From NCBI RefSeq assembly GCF_000194945.1, contig NZ_GL878511.1, positions 62,001 to 126,000 on the forward strand: 64,000 nucleotides of DNA, read 5' to 3'. The translations under genes and the position numbers were made by a program. Below the pieces are notes generated by a model that was given only the letters and a program-made list of their open reading frames with translations, made no database searches and was not told where the DNA came from. The DNA comes from Streptococcus sanguinis SK1 = NCTC 7863. GTDB taxonomy: Bacteria > Bacillota > Bacilli > Lactobacillales > Streptococcaceae. Shown in pieces: positions 12,483 to 17,653 of this stretch. Each line of letters begins with the position of its first letter. Within the stretch, counting starts at the first letter, position 1.

Positions 12483-12770
12483 ATGAAACTTTCAAATATT
12501 TTCCTATTTATCGGTGCCGCTGCAGCCAGTTACAAGCTGGTTGAAAACCGTCAAAAAATTCAAGAAGAAATCATTGAAACAACAGATAGCCTAGACAAAG
12601 TTAAGGACAGTCTAGCCAATATCCAACGAAATATTGCCATCATTCAAGAGCAAAAAGAGCAAGTCAAAGACATCGCTCAAGATCTTACCTATAAATATAA
12701 AGTCCTTGAAAACCAAGCTCAAGTGCAGATCCAGCAAGTCAAAGACATCTGGGAAAAGTACGAGTCTTGA
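12483..12770 (+). CDS. Small membrane-anchored coiled-coil protein, unknown function
   Basis: 95 residues: one N-terminal hydrophobic segment (about residues 4-19, LSNIFLFIGAAAASYKL), then an extended heptad-rich, Lys/Glu/Gln-rich region to the C-terminus. It resembles YtxH-type proteins in layout, but I cannot assign a family. AGGAGG precedes the ATG. It is co-transcribed with the HIT gene and closed by a perfect terminator. Confidence 0.75.
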   Translation: MKLSNIFLFIGAAAASYKLVENRQKIQEEIIETTDSLDKVKDSLANIQRNIAIIQEQKEQVKDIAQDLTYKYKVLENQAQVQIQQVKDIWEKYES

Positions 12771-12772
12771 TA

Positions 12773-12808
12773 GAGAAAAACTCCAGTTTTTAGCTGGAGT
12801 TTTTCTCT
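12773..12808 (+). terminator. Terminator of the HIT operon
   Basis: A perfect 15-bp inverted repeat, AGAGAAAAACTCCAG and its complement around a 7-nt loop. The T-run is in the descending arm and the structure could act in both directions. Confidence 0.85.
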
Positions 12809-12901
12809 ATCAAAAGGTGCTGTTTTTGAAATACGAAATGGTTCTCTGAAAACTTTTTCTACATCTATTTATCACAACTTATTCTTCTTCATAAAAAGGG
12901 A

Positions 12902-15562
12902 CTATTTTCCTTTACGGATATTTCGAAAAAGGAGGATTAGCATAAGGACAAATAGTCCTTCTAGAAAGAAGAAAGCAACCTCACTATTCATTATAAGGGA
13001 ATCAACTTCAATACTATATCGGCGTAACCCTGCTATATTAAAAAATAGAATCCTAAGAAATCGTCGAAGAAAGATAAACAGCTGCAAACTATAAATTATG
13101 AAGACCTTTTTAACTCCAATTATTAAACGTTGTTCTTTTGTAAAATAAGACATAGCAACAGCATTTAATAGCAGCATGACTGTTAGGCTAAGGGTGTCTT
13201 GCCGAAGAATCATAGGATCAAAGTAACTAAGTCTAAAGTGAATGAGAGGAGAAAATTGAAAAAGAAGAATCCCTATTAAACTTGGAAAGAAAATTTTCTT
13301 AAGCGAAGGCGGAAAGTCTAGACTCAATCTCGTAAAGGACAAAATAATGAGCAGGATAATCAGAATAATGCTATAGAATATGACAACACCTGAAACCAAT
13401 TGGCTTCTTTTTGCCAAAGCAGAAAGAAAACCAGCAGAAAGAAAAATACCAATAGGAGTAAGCCAATCTAGTGAATAATTCCATTTTGGACCCTTATTAA
13501 CCTTAAATCCATCAATAAAGCAGAAAAATGTTATAAAAGAGAGTCCAACGATAAGTCCAAGAGGTAAAAACGGAATGGCTAAGAAAAGGAATAAAATTCC
13601 CATAACCCACATATTGAGATTGTAGTAAAGTTTGGGCTTCATACCTCGAGCAAAATCCCCTTCTTCCATGGGTGTTTGTCGCATTCTCAATATATAATAG
13701 TAAAAAAGAGATACCATTCCTACATAAACCCAAGAATTTAATCCAAGACGTTGCTCTTGGGTACTTTGTATGAGGCTAAATACAGTCAAAACAGCAAATA
13801 CAAACTGCAGAAATTTATTGGTGAATATCTGTCTTTTTTTCCAAGACGAATAGGATAGTTTCGACTTAGGATAACTGAGCTCATAGGCATAGGCTGTCAT
13901 CTCTTCAAGTTTCTTGTCCGTCTCCTCTGTCATCATATGTGGAGCAATTTTAGAAGTAGTAAATCTTCCAAGAACAAATCTCAAGACTTCTCCATCTGTG
14001 AAGCGTCGATACTCCTTGTATATCTGTTCAAACAAGACAGTTAGAATACGAGGCTTTTCTTTAAAATATTGCTTCCACTCATCCCAATCATTGATGAGTT
14101 CATCACTTTTCGTTAGTTTTTCAACATAAAGATAGCCTTCGTAATACCAATATTCAAAATTCTCCTTATTATCTAGTTCAAACTCTTTTACAACAGAAGG
14201 ATAGGACTGAACAATATTCCAGAATTGTAGCTTTTTCAGATAGGGATTCGACTCCTCGTCACTTGAACGCTCTACAAATTGGAGTATCAGGGTTAAAACC
14301 TTTTTATTCTTTAAAGGATAGACATCCACTTTTTCTAACAAAGATAGTAAAAGTGATTGATCCTTAACCCTTTCAAAAAGAAATTGCCAATCACGCAATA
14401 GACTATAGTCGTCTTCATAATGAGCGTTTAGCAGTTCATAAAAAACTACCTCAACCTCATCAGGGTTATCTAAAGAGTATTGATTAAAGTCAACATTTTC
14501 ACCAAGTTTTACCTTTAATTTCTTTAAGTACTCAGCTAGGTCATCAAACTGTTCACGATCCTCTTCAAACATTACTTGTCGCACCTTTTCAAGGATATAA
14601 GTTAAAACAGGGACACTCTTAATTATCTGACGCTTCTGACTCACTTGAAACAGCACGACAAAAGCAAGATGCGGGTGCTTAAAAAAATCTATCCAAGATG
14701 TTAGTTGATTTGCTTTTTTAGAATCTTTGAGAATTTCTTGGCATAAAAGATATGAAGCGTAAAATTGCTCAGTCTCTTCTTTTGCACTTGCAATAGATTT
14801 CTGTTTTTCTACTGCCCCTGCCCTTTTGATTTCCCAATGATTCAGTTTGTAATAGTAACTCCAGTTGCGAAAATCAGGGACATAGTCTTTCAGTAAAGGT
14901 ATGATGATAGAGAATTGTTCAGGCTTGTTAAAAATATAAACATCCATTTCCTCTAGGACAGTCTGAACAACACTCATGTCATATCTATACTGACTAAAGA
15001 ACTGGCTCCAAAGATTTTCTTGCTCTTCAAAGCTATAATCAGCATTGCCGATTATGCTTTCAATCGAATTCCGAATTATATACGAAGTTTCATTATAGTC
15101 GCTAAAATCCAGGGTAGACTTTGCGGTTTCTTCTTGTAACTGCGCTTCCTCCACCTTCAACGTTTCAAAGTTTAGAGAAGTCTCTGGTTCTTCATAGTTT
15201 CCGATTGAAGCAGTTGAACGTTTATAGTCACTAAAGTCAAGTAGAGACTTTGCACCTTCCTCTTGCGACTGCTCCTCTTCTATATGTAAAGTATCAAAAT
15301 CAAGGAAACTTGAAGCAGAGTCTTGGGTTTCCTCACATGTCTGGCTTTCTTGCTGATGGGAAATCGGTTTTCTTAGACCAATCTCTGAGCTAGCATTGAT
15401 TGATCTTGCATAATTTAAGGCTACTTGATAGGCTTCAACAATTTGCTGATAGATTTCTGGTTGGTCTTCAGGATGATAATGTCGAACCAGCTCAGCATAA
15501 CGTCTCCGAATTGCTTTGACATCATGAGTTGGCTCAATACCTAAAGTTTCCCATATACTCAT
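12902..15562 (-). CDS. Large polytopic membrane protein with N-terminal J domain (Djl-like)
   Basis: 886 residues. Residues 2-50 form a divergent J domain (WETLGIEPTHDVKAIRRRYAELVRHYHPE) in which the canonical HPD loop reads HPE (residues 30-32), as in DjlB/DjlC-type co-chaperones. A linker follows with two copies of an acidic repeat about 43 residues apart (about 86-113 and 130-156, each ending LDFSDY). A soluble alpha-helical region reaches to about 570, then about nine predicted membrane segments to the C-terminus. The start lies 13 bp after the stop of an Hsp70 gene, so the two form an operon. The layout suggests a co-chaperone that tethers the Hsp70 to the membrane. The client is unknown. 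Confidence 0.85.
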   Translation of the reverse strand: MSIWETLGIEPTHDVKAIRRRYAELVRHYHPEDQPEIYQQIVEAYQVALNYARSINASSEIGLRKPISHQQESQTCEETQDSASSFLDFDTLHIEEEQSQEEGAKSLLDFSDYKRSTASIGNYEEPETSLNFETLKVEEAQLQEETAKSTLDFSDYNETSYIIRNSIESIIGNADYSFEEQENLWSQFFSQYRYDMSVVQTVLEEMDVYIFNKPEQFSIIIPLLKDYVPDFRNWSYYYKLNHWEIKRAGAVEKQKSIASAKEETEQFYASYLLCQEILKDSKKANQLTSWIDFFKHPHLAFVVLFQVSQKRQIIKSVPVLTYILEKVRQVMFEEDREQFDDLAEYLKKLKVKLGENVDFNQYSLDNPDEVEVVFYELLNAHYEDDYSLLRDWQFLFERVKDQSLLLSLLEKVDVYPLKNKKVLTLILQFVERSSDEESNPYLKKLQFWNIVQSYPSVVKEFELDNKENFEYWYYEGYLYVEKLTKSDELINDWDEWKQYFKEKPRILTVLFEQIYKEYRRFTDGEVLRFVLGRFTTSKIAPHMMTEETDKKLEEMTAYAYELSYPKSKLSYSSWKKRQIFTNKFLQFVFAVLTVFSLIQSTQEQRLGLNSWVYVGMVSLFYYYILRMRQTPMEEGDFARGMKPKLYYNLNMWVMGILFLFLAIPFLPLGLIVGLSFITFFCFIDGFKVNKGPKWNYSLDWLTPIGIFLSAGFLSALAKRSQLVSGVVIFYSIILIILLIILSFTRLSLDFPPSLKKIFFPSLIGILLFQFSPLIHFRLSYFDPMILRQDTLSLTVMLLLNAVAMSYFTKEQRLIIGVKKVFIIYSLQLFIFLRRFLRILFFNIAGLRRYSIEVDSLIMNSEVAFFFLEGLFVLMLILLFRNIRKGK

Positions 15563-15575
15563 ATTTTCTCCTCTC

Positions 15576-17240
15576 TTACAACCCTCGTTCTAGATAATCT
15601 AAGTAACGAGAAAATGACTGGTAAACCTTAGGTAATTGATAGACAGACGCCTGTTTGACCTCTTCCTCAAATCTCTTTGTTTCCTCCATCAGATTATCTC
15701 TTCTCCTGCCGAGTAGCATACTATAGACGCGATTGGCCTTCTCAATCAAGAAGCGGTAGACCTCTGTCTCCTGTGCATTAATCTTATAGCGAGATAATTC
15801 AGATTGTTTGGCCTTGATTTCCTTTTCTGTCAGCGTAATACTATCTTGCAAGATGACATGGCTAAAGATTTCTTGAGTCGAGTCAATTTTCACTTCCACA
15901 TCCAATATTCCATTAAGATCATAGGTGAATCGGACTGTAAAACCTTCATTAGCTCGATAATTTACAGGAACTGGAACTTCCAGTTCTCCTAAGAATAAGT
16001 TTTGGGTCGCCTTCATCATCTCGCCTTGGTAGACCTTTATCTTCACCTGGCTCTGTCCCATTTCAGCAGTATAGTAATGCTCCAACCGCGAAGCAGGGAG
16101 GGTGGAATTTCGCTCTATTATTGGTGAAAAATGATCACCGACTACCTTAATACCGAGTGTGAACGGGCAGATATCAGAAAGCAACAGGTCTCGTATCTCT
16201 CCTTGACGTTGCTTGATTCCTGCAAGGAGCGCACATCCTCTTGCAATCATCAGATCAGGATCATCAGATACTTGCACCTTTTGATCAATACAGTAAGATA
16301 GAAAATCCTGAACCAATCTCAATTTTGAAGTTCCTCCAACTAGGACAAAATTATCAGAGGTTACATAGCTAAAACGTGCATCCATTAAAGCGCGGTCTAA
16401 AACTGCCTTAACACGGGCTAACAGAGGTTGACAAAGCTCATAAAAACGCTGATAGGTCAAATTTAAAGAATATTTCTGTTTCTGGTCAAGTACTGACATT
16501 TTCACTTCTTCTTTGTCATTCAAGTCCAACTTAGTTTTCTCAGCTTGCACCAAAATTTTGCTATAGAATTCGCGCGAAATGGAGTCCTTGGTCAATTGAT
16601 TGAAGACTAAAAATTCCTCAGCAATAGCTGCAGTGAAATCCTCTCCTCCCAAACGATTGTCACCTGCTATAGACACAATCTCAACAATATTATCAAACAA
16701 CTCTACAACTGAGATATCCAGAGTACCTCCACCAAAATCGACTACAATGAAAGATTGATCCTCTTGATGACTCATGGAGCTTTTAGCAAGGGCAGCTGCA
16801 GAAGGTTCATTGATAATACGATCAATCTTAACCCCTGCAAATTTGCCTGCTAGTTTTGTCGCATAGCGCTGAGCATCATTGAAATAGGCTGGTACACTAA
16901 CGATAACTTCATCAACTTTCTCTCCAAGATAAGTTTCTGCATCATCTACCAACTTTCGAATCACAAAAGAGCTTAATTCTTCAGCCTTATAAGTTCTATT
17001 TCCTAGTCTTAAGTCGTGCTTAGTTCCCATAAAGCGTTTAAATTGAGAAACAGTCTTGTCAGAATGAGTGACCAAGCGCTCCTTAGCGATTTTCCCAACT
17101 ATGATTTCGTCATTATCGTCTAAGGCCACAACAGAAGGAGTCAAAAACTCTCCAAAAGCATTTGGGATCAGCTTAACCTGACCGTCTTGATAAATTCCAA
17201 CCAAAGAATTTGTTGTTCCTAAATCAATACCTACAATCAT
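15576..17240 (-). CDS. HscC-like Hsp70 family chaperone
   Basis: 554 residues, shorter than housekeeping DnaK (about 607) and close to Escherichia coli HscC (about 556). The ATPase domain is intact: GIDLGTTNSLVGIY phosphate-1 loop, VVDFGGGTLDISV phosphate-2 loop, VGGTSKLRLVQ adenosine motif and INEPSAAALA. LIPNAFGEFLTPS and LGGEDFT also match HscC better than DnaK. The substrate-binding domain follows (about 360-500), then a shortened helical lid without the DnaK EEVD-like tail. It is the first gene of an operon with the J-domain membrane protein. No CIRCE or CtsR heptad repeats are visible upstream, so heat induction is not indicated. Confidence 0.9.
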   Translation of the reverse strand: MIVGIDLGTTNSLVGIYQDGQVKLIPNAFGEFLTPSVVALDDNDEIIVGKIAKERLVTHSDKTVSQFKRFMGTKHDLRLGNRTYKAEELSSFVIRKLVDDAETYLGEKVDEVIVSVPAYFNDAQRYATKLAGKFAGVKIDRIINEPSAAALAKSSMSHQEDQSFIVVDFGGGTLDISVVELFDNIVEIVSIAGDNRLGGEDFTAAIAEEFLVFNQLTKDSISREFYSKILVQAEKTKLDLNDKEEVKMSVLDQKQKYSLNLTYQRFYELCQPLLARVKAVLDRALMDARFSYVTSDNFVLVGGTSKLRLVQDFLSYCIDQKVQVSDDPDLMIARGCALLAGIKQRQGEIRDLLLSDICPFTLGIKVVGDHFSPIIERNSTLPASRLEHYYTAEMGQSQVKIKVYQGEMMKATQNLFLGELEVPVPVNYRANEGFTVRFTYDLNGILDVEVKIDSTQEIFSHVILQDSITLTEKEIKAKQSELSRYKINAQETEVYRFLIEKANRVYSMLLGRRRDNLMEETKRFEEEVKQASVYQLPKVYQSFSRYLDYLERGL

Positions 17241-17275
17241 ACTTCTTCTAACTCCAAATTTTTATACATATTCCC

Positions 17276-17281
17276 ATTATA
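17276..17281 (-). promoter_or_regulatory. -10 box of the hsp70/J-protein operon
   Basis: TATAAT on the minus strand, preceded by TG-rich sequence, lies 35 bp ahead of the ATG. The ATG has GGAG upstream. The -35 region is A/T-rich without a clear match. Confidence 0.5.
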
Positions 17282-17337
17282 CAGGAAATATTCTATTTTT
17301 TTAAGAAAAATCTGCTAGTCATACAATACAAGCACGA

Positions 17338-17375
17338 AAAAATGTATGCAACTTTTTCTAGCTACATACATTTTT
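17338..17375. other. Inverted repeat in the hsp70-LCP intergenic region
   Basis: AAAAATGTATG (17338-17348) and its exact complement (17365-17375) flank a 16-nt loop. On the minus strand the right arm runs into T residues, so it could end read-through from the LCP gene about 290 bp upstream; its function is not certain. The rest of the 424-bp gap (17241-17664) holds only a candidate plus-strand small transcript. Confidence 0.4.
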
Positions 17376-17564
17376 CAAGATATTTTTGTTTTTACATTCA
17401 AACTTGTTCATTTTTACTATTTCGGTTTGATTATACTATGAAACTTTCAAAAAATATTATAGGAAAAACTGCTGTCAGAAAACATTATTTCTTCATGTGC
17501 TTGTAGTGCATCACTTGCTAGATTCAATTCAATAATAACAAGAGAAGTTTGATATAATTGACAA

Positions 17565-17653
17565 ATGTTTTAAAAAGAGAGAATCAATAACAACTTCACT
17601 TGATGTTACTTTTTGTCACCAACTACAATTTACAAAGAGCTGGCCTCTTTTTA
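17565..17653 (+). ncRNA. Candidate small RNA in the LCP-hsp70 gap
   Basis: On the plus strand an extended -10 (TGATATAAT, TATAAT at 17553-17558) is followed about 90 bp later by a short hairpin (AAAGAG/CTCTTT, 17634-17650) with a T run. There is no open frame between. This is consistent with an 85-90 nt small RNA convergent with the LCP gene. There is no clear -35 box and the terminator stem is short, so this is tentative. Confidence 0.3.

Follow-up and report, generated by a model that had tools for sequence, protein, structure and literature searches.

An HscC-clade Hsp70 and a predicted multi-span J-domain membrane protein form a proposed two-gene module in Streptococcus sanguinis SK1

We analyzed a window of 64,000 nucleotides from Streptococcus sanguinis SK1 (contig NZ_GL878511.1, positions 62,001 to 126,000 of the forward strand), in which two neighboring minus-strand genes encode an Hsp70 and a J-domain membrane protein, its putative partner; all coordinates below are those of the window. 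The Hsp70 gene (15576..17240, minus strand) encodes 554 amino acids (aa) and matches the Pfam HSP70 model with 389 bits. The J gene (12902..15562, minus strand) lies downstream and encodes 886 aa. In the window's list of open reading frames (ORFs), both frames have the lengths that an earlier note on this DNA had given them, and they are 13 bp apart. An ordinary DnaK of 607 aa is encoded on another contig, and this DnaK and the window Hsp70 are the only Hsp70s that the Pfam model detected in the genome (2.28 Mb, seven contigs).

The Hsp70 had been described as distinct from DnaK and HscC-like, and phylogenetic analysis agreed. In a tree of 68 rows (LG+C20+F+G4 by posterior mean site frequency), a branch with 100/100 support separated the window Hsp70, 48 similar proteins and E. 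coli HscC from 17 DnaKs and HscA. The protein thus falls outside the DnaK clade, the one placement that would have told against the description, and the possibility of a second DnaK is ruled out by the same split. Sequence identity of the window Hsp70 is 81-91% with its counterparts in ten named relatives, 37% with E. coli HscC, 35% with the DnaK of the same genome and 32% with that of E. coli. HscCs are characterized by a length of 550-580 residues, a deletion in the GrpE signature, a deletion of DnaK residues 76-101, a nine-residue deletion in lid helix B, and an insertion of 4-8 residues in L1,2 (PMC8215388). At 554 aa the window protein is within this size range, it has 17 residues where DnaK has 23 over DnaK positions 278-300 (six fewer), and its helix B region comprises 37 residues versus 46 in DnaK (nine fewer), which agrees with the short lid noted earlier. 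The deletion of residues 76-101 is present too, yet it does not discriminate because the strain's own DnaK shares it. L1,2 has the DnaK length of 12 residues in the window protein and 17 other members, which together are all 18 of the streptococcal subclade, versus 16-21 residues in 36 other HscC-clade rows, E. coli HscC among them; eight further HscC-clade rows were not measured by the pattern used. Because this last feature of HscC is lacking, we refer to the protein as HscC-clade and not as a textbook HscC. Since HscC-specific changes such as the L1,2 insertion are expected to alter client binding (PMC8215388), the window Hsp70 may differ from other HscCs in its choice of clients.

The partner begins with a J domain (residues 1-57; 15392..15562, minus strand). 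Pfam DnaJ matched residues 4-47 with 25.9 bits, just below Pfam's own cut-off of 27.8, but at an E limit of 1 all 11 of 11 family members have the DnaJ domain among their matches (best 1.6e-6). The AlphaFold2 (AF2) model of the J protein also matched the solved J domain 2och (TMt 0.70, Foldseek E 0.76, prob 1.00). By similarity the domain is closest to that of E. coli DjlB (42%, E 5e-9), followed by DjlC (33%, E 6e-5) and DnaJ (32%, E 0.002). No glycine/phenylalanine-rich (G/F), zinc-finger or DnaJ C-terminal domain was found at a credible Pfam score, as is characteristic of class C J proteins. Over its full length, the J protein is 54-67% identical to those of the ten named relatives. The tripeptide HPE (residues 30-32; 15467..15475, minus strand) replaces HPD in the window protein, as reported before, and is found in 15 of 15 Mitis-group J proteins. 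Its reading as an oddity does not hold: DjlB and DjlC also have HPE (PMC13254874), and among the tripeptides of HscC-linked J proteins it is the most frequent one (at 28 of 58 loci, and at 14 of 44 once the other Mitis-group copies are removed), so it is no sign of divergence. HPE is also the only replacement of HPD that seems tolerated (PMC13254874).

The J domain is followed by an acidic linker (residues 59-158; 15089..15388, minus strand) with a net charge of -18, which is predicted to be disordered (AF2 predicted local distance difference test, pLDDT, below 50 over residues 55-158). As noted earlier, it contains a duplicated acidic repeat. Copy 1 (residues 84-116; 15215..15313, minus strand) carries the motifs LDFDTL and LDFSDY, and copy 2 (residues 127-159; 15086..15184, minus strand) LNFETL and LDFSDY; the DNA copies of 77 nucleotides are 71% identical and 129 nucleotides apart, and 19 of 33 residues are identical at the protein level. 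With a loose pattern, such motifs number 1 to 10 per protein among relatives. In a test whose pattern was devised after the repeats had been seen, they exceed shuffled linkers in 14 of the 15 Mitis-group proteins (p 0.009 or less). They are also enriched at loci L082, L153 and L155 (p 0.001), the latter two being near kin. As a general feature of HscC partners the motif is unsupported, given that enrichment is absent from 28 of 31 other partners, of which 24 contain no motif and four a single one (p 0.06-0.20). Separately, the L153 and L155 partners have a repeated aromatic linker motif of their own, of the LNWQDQ type, and the L170 partner has WVPPSW-type aromatic repeats that are not enriched by the pattern used; both parallel the LDFSDY repeats.

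The large soluble helical region that had been recognized in the sequence corresponds to residues 158-565 (13868..15091, minus strand), which AF2 predicts to be all-helical (pLDDT 85.0; predicted template modeling score, pTM, 0.77). This region gave only weak matches, to unrelated alpha solenoids, and the best Z of 9.2 over 105 residues by VIA-align 2 is in a range common for helical repeats; we therefore describe its fold only as an alpha solenoid. Foldseek found no match at E <=0.001 for either the full-length J model or the solenoid model. The C-terminal membrane domain (residues 584-879; 12926..13813, minus strand) is predicted from AF2, the family profile and the charge rule to contain 9-10 helices. 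Nine hydrophobic segments are seen in the family-averaged profile, in line with the earlier estimate of about nine spans; AF2 adds a weaker helix at residues 610-627 (family hydropathy 0.98), which would bring the number to ten, and a strict single-sequence threshold gives only six in the window protein and 6-8 in its relatives. Of three topologies tried, ten spans fit the positive-inside rule best, with 20.2 Lys/Arg per protein predicted inside versus 8.0 outside, compared with 13.5 versus 16.0 for nine spans and 17.7 versus 13.2 for eight. Neither the membrane domain nor the solenoid matched a known family at a credible score in Pfam, NCBIfam or PDB sequences.

We next considered whether the two genes travel together. 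Among 147 congeneric Streptococcus genomes, the HscC-clade Hsp70 and the J protein were both found in the same 19: 15 genomes have a full-length pair, four a diverged pair (Hsp70 identity 43-49%, J protein of 269-451 aa with no or one span), and 128 no pair. Because the pair is intact in 14 other genomes of this sample, a chance arrangement is excluded. The ten full-length named J relatives belong to S. oralis (four records), S. infantis, S. peroris, one record labelled S. pseudopneumoniae and three Streptococcus spp., and in all ten the Hsp70 gene adjoins the J gene. At 57 of 61 HscC-clade loci the J gene lies on the same strand and within 25 bp or overlapping, a count that includes the window and 14 near kin and is favored by three loci (L193, L194 and L196) found via the J protein. 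The co-occurrence that the earlier note had predicted is thus consistent, and separation of the genes in most genomes, which would have counted against it, was not what the survey returned. Ratios of nonsynonymous to synonymous change (dN/dS) of about 0.2-0.3 for the J gene and 0.05 for the Hsp70 gene were obtained in two comparisons among L065, L066 and L074, whereas synonymous sites are near-saturated in comparisons with the window. In the unsaturated comparisons, both genes are under purifying selection.

Beyond the genus, an HscC-clade gene was detected in 27 of 345 genomes of the order sample, in nine of 398 of the phylum sample, and in 15 of 105 and nine of 36 genomes of the families of G274 and G198, respectively; these samples overlap. 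From the phylum survey, 20 matches (E 7e-101 to 9e-98) had been set aside as DnaK, and the ten that were put in the tree all fell on the DnaK side. Eight pair-less genomes and the carrier G108 gave further Hsp70 matches and were searched again; the stretches retrieved, from all of these genomes but G076 and for all matches but a third one in G113, held other kinds of Hsp70 in seven genomes, and the G108 match was a DnaK interrupted by masked sequence. Other streptococcal Hsp70-like proteins were also encountered. L222-L226 encode one of 530-535 aa, clustered with a protein of 507-629 aa, one of 158-179 aa and, judged by eye, a probable ATP-binding cassette (ABC) transporter pair, and no J gene was found in 14 kb. 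At L221 (6137-7675) and L228 (5835-7371), a 512-aa Hsp70-like protein lies beside a protein of 455 aa whose J-like match is weak (E 4e-4 and 1e-3), and the L228 copy of the Hsp70 gene is broken into two reading frames. Carriage of the full J protein by plasmids or phages was rejected: none of 72,556 plasmid and 50,697 phage records covers 80% of it, and the listed matches reach at most 17% coverage, from the J domain on. One 'phage' match, L196, comes from a faecal contig of unverified nature that carries two J genes in addition to an HscC-clade gene.

In SK1 the pair most likely arrived as an accessory insert. Six relatives whose flanks are 94-97% identical to the window join position 12779 to 17642 across only 83-89 bp (of three more, two were uninformative because of a contig end and a scaffold gap, and one was too diverged). 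This delimits an insert of 4.86 kb (12780..17641) that carries only the Hsp70 and J genes; it contains no third ORF of at least 100 aa and therefore no integrase. The alternative is that these relatives lost the pair, but a gain is favored because both genes are low in guanine and cytosine (GC; 35.8% for the J gene and 40.1% for the Hsp70 gene, against 43.7% for the window). At the left junction, 20 bp are repeated perfectly in inverted orientation around a 7-nucleotide loop (12767..12813), probably a terminator hairpin. In the 14 other Mitis-group genomes sampled, the pair occupies one shared site that differs from that of SK1, after a gene for a 119-aa protein, which we take to be rplT. The small gene at 12483-12770 is found at 98-100% identity in eight of 14 congeners searched, and the intergenic site beside it may be a spot for insertions, since a different sequence and a scaffold gap fill the same site at L201 (G132).

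A promoter-like TTAAAA-17-TATAAT upstream of the Hsp70 gene (17276..17304, minus strand) is a consensus match only, and sites of this kind number 23 in the region versus 14.9 +/- 4.4 in shuffles. Heat shock control by HrcA was rejected, as the window contains no controlling inverted repeat of chaperone expression (CIRCE) at three or fewer mismatches. CtsR-like sites number eight in the window versus 2.5 expected, and none of 100 shuffles reaches eight; all eight carry three mismatches and none is upstream of the Hsp70 gene.

The closest known system is E. coli HscC with DjlB and DjlC, J proteins that sit in the membrane (PMC8215388). Both systems combine an Hsp70 of the same clade with HPE J domains encoded near or beside hscC. 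By contrast, DjlB and DjlC have 475-483 aa and one predicted C-terminal span each, consistent with the earlier statement that E. coli J partners have far fewer membrane segments; the SK1 protein has no such single tail anchor and no detectable homology to them outside the J domain. The E. coli J genes also lie on the strand opposite to hscC and are accompanied by DUF1266 genes, whereas the SK1 pair shares one strand, and the L1,2 insertion is present in E. coli HscC and missing from the SK1 Hsp70. HscC/J pairs of Enterococcaceae type and of other Lactobacillales (by inferred family names) are likewise two-gene units on one strand, but their J partners mostly have one span, their HPD is often broken, and the residue at the position of DnaK R167 is then usually not Arg. 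Plasmid-borne pairs of Duffyella and Rahnella resemble the SK1 pair in having an adjacent J gene whose product has up to four and three predicted spans, respectively; these partners differ in their RPD tripeptide, their length of 459-497 aa and the absence of homology outside the J domain. In 31 partners outside the Mitis group, the strict threshold predicts one span in 18, two in six, four in one (L167) and none in the remaining six, and one span in each of eight additional HscC-linked partners. Multiple spans are therefore not peculiar to streptococci, given four each at L167 and on the Duffyella plasmid, but the Mitis-group proteins, with 6-8 at the same threshold, have the most. A multi-span J protein also brings the Hsp70 BiP to the endoplasmic reticulum membrane in eukaryotes, namely Sec63, whose J domain is lumenal; the likeness is one of analogy, with a weak J-domain match (E 0.67) and no homology beyond that domain. 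What is new here is an HscC partner of about ten spans with a solenoid; the combination of HscC with a membrane J partner has itself been described for E. coli (PMC8215388). A streptococcal HscC module is not named in the literature surveyed, a partial survey that does not show its absence from print.

The contact that couples J proteins to Hsp70s was compared across pairs. In DnaK, R167 is the residue to which D35 of HPD bonds (PMC8215388). The window Hsp70 has Arg141 (16818..16820, minus strand) at the equivalent position, so that the window pair combines HPE with Arg. Across 58 loci that have an HscC-clade gene together with a J gene, among them that of E. coli, HP[DE] occurs with Arg at 32 and without it at one; Arg is thus retained at 32 of the 33 loci with an HPE or HPD J protein. 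A broken tripeptide occurs with Arg at six loci and without it at 19. Fisher's test, which ignores kinship, gives p 3e-9 for this association, and p 2e-6 when 14 Mitis-group copies are removed. Rough parsimony on a tree built with FastTree requires only two changes of Arg and seven of the tripeptide, and with so few changes the association across HscC pairs is no more than suggestive. Broken forms of HPD (IPD, VPD, NID, RAD, VTD and others) are found at L145, L146, L156-L159, L161, L163-L166, L184-L187 and L189-L192, and the HscCs beside them have Asn, Ser, Gly, Gln, Lys or Leu at the R167 position. These loci are possible HPD-independent Hsp70-J pairs. This apparent, mostly joint loss of HPD and its contacting Arg in other HscC pairs is our most striking side result.

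We propose, with a probability of roughly 55%, that the SK1 pair is a variant of the HscC-J protein module that is anchored in the membrane and likely serves the cytosolic parts of membrane proteins, a function that we infer. The clade placement, the GrpE-signature and lid deletions, the adjacent and conserved J gene, the purifying selection and the hydrophobic multi-helix C-terminal domain are all computed here. The J domain would face the cytosol, where its HPE together with Arg141 of the Hsp70 would trigger ATP hydrolysis, and nucleotide exchange would proceed without GrpE. The polytopic domain would keep the J partner in the cytoplasmic membrane, as an anchor or as a client binder. The flexible acidic linker would let the J domain reach out. 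It may also collect basic loops that membrane proteins expose to the cytosol, in keeping with the preference of E. coli HscC for positively charged peptides (PMC8215388); the solenoid is a putative platform for clients or adaptors. The task of the module would then be the folding, assembly or upkeep of the cytosolic parts of membrane proteins. A bolder version strikes us as rather doubtful: the membrane domain and solenoid would bind unassembled membrane proteins and pass their basic cytosolic segments to HscC, making the pair a dedicated Gram-positive Hsp70 machine for assembly or repair that moves between oral streptococci as a two-gene unit; more broadly, HscC-J pairs of some lineages may have rewired the HPD-Arg switch and still function as a pair in the absence of HPD.

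Several observations weigh against our proposal. The topology is predicted, and the AF2 model of the complete J protein is poor (pLDDT 58.5, pTM 0.38). The L1,2 insertion, which other HscCs have in the beta substrate-binding domain, is missing from the window Hsp70, and the association of Arg with HP[DE] depends on few changes in the tree. Four of the 61 HscC-clade loci (L160, L162, L168 and L188) have no adjacent J gene, and the 10-kb stretch of L195, a locus found via the J protein, contains no HscC gene. The J partners at six of the 31 other loci have no predicted span, which means that the module does not always involve tethering to the membrane. Finally, when profiles were compared with the 31 partners (nine groups) and DjlB/DjlC, with eleven other partners left out, only the J domain aligned (E 3.6e-9 with DjlB/DjlC). 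The best matches outside it had E 0.17 with DjlB/DjlC and E 0.012, at a probability of 3.6%, with part of L167 that is hydrophobic; as nothing clear is shared there, the client or task may differ.

This divergence outside the J domain is also what would be expected if the polytopic domain had an activity of its own, as a transporter, channel or enzyme, with an Hsp70 that chaperoned or regulated only that protein through the J domain fused to it, as if J domains had become attached to unrelated proteins. J domains have been noted as late additions to cellular processes (PMC8215388). That the membrane domain matches no Pfam transporter or enzyme family at a credible score, and that HscC-linked J proteins of several lineages have no membrane domain, make this explanation unlikely, though it carries real weight. 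The linker invites a different account, in which the repeated LDFSDY/LNFETF motifs would bind the J domain and hold it in check, their copy number setting how tight the control of the Hsp70 is. Autoinhibition by a G/F-region helix is known in eukaryotic class B J proteins (PMC8215388), the G/F linker of E. coli DnaJ contains ADFSDIF, and the motifs are enriched in the Mitis-group proteins and at L082, L153 and L155 as described above. Nevertheless, the low pLDDT of residues 55-158, the lack of enrichment in 28 of 31 other partners, a pattern written only after the repeats had been seen, and a five-residue likeness to DnaJ that may be chance render such a brake improbable.

The accessory, low-GC and discrete nature of the insert, and its different site in relatives, could also indicate a defence or other mobile cargo pair instead of a housekeeping chaperone. 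However, the pair does not match an anti-phage defence model: PADLOC models did not match the J protein, and their match to the Hsp70 spans just 41 residues (E 0.004). The 14 other Mitis-group genomes of the sample also have the pair at a common site, and the insert has no integrase; we consider mobile cargo very improbable. A duplicated DnaK decaying beside an unrelated membrane gene would fit the absence of the Hsp70 from 128 of 147 congeners, but it is scarcely credible, being refuted by the full support of the HscC clade in the tree and at odds with a gene that is intact in 15 genomes and with purifying selection on both genes.

HscC is poorly understood, and E. coli offers only tail-anchored J partners for it. 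HscC has been placed tentatively at the plasma membrane, with transmembrane clients, in a 2021 review (PMC8215388). Why some J proteins lost HPD has been called enigmatic in a 2026 review (PMC13254874), and the mostly joint loss of HPD and Arg in HscC-linked pairs bears on this enigma. If our reading of the SK1 pair is right, its partner of about ten predicted spans would make the membrane hypothesis for HscC directly testable in a Gram-positive bacterium.

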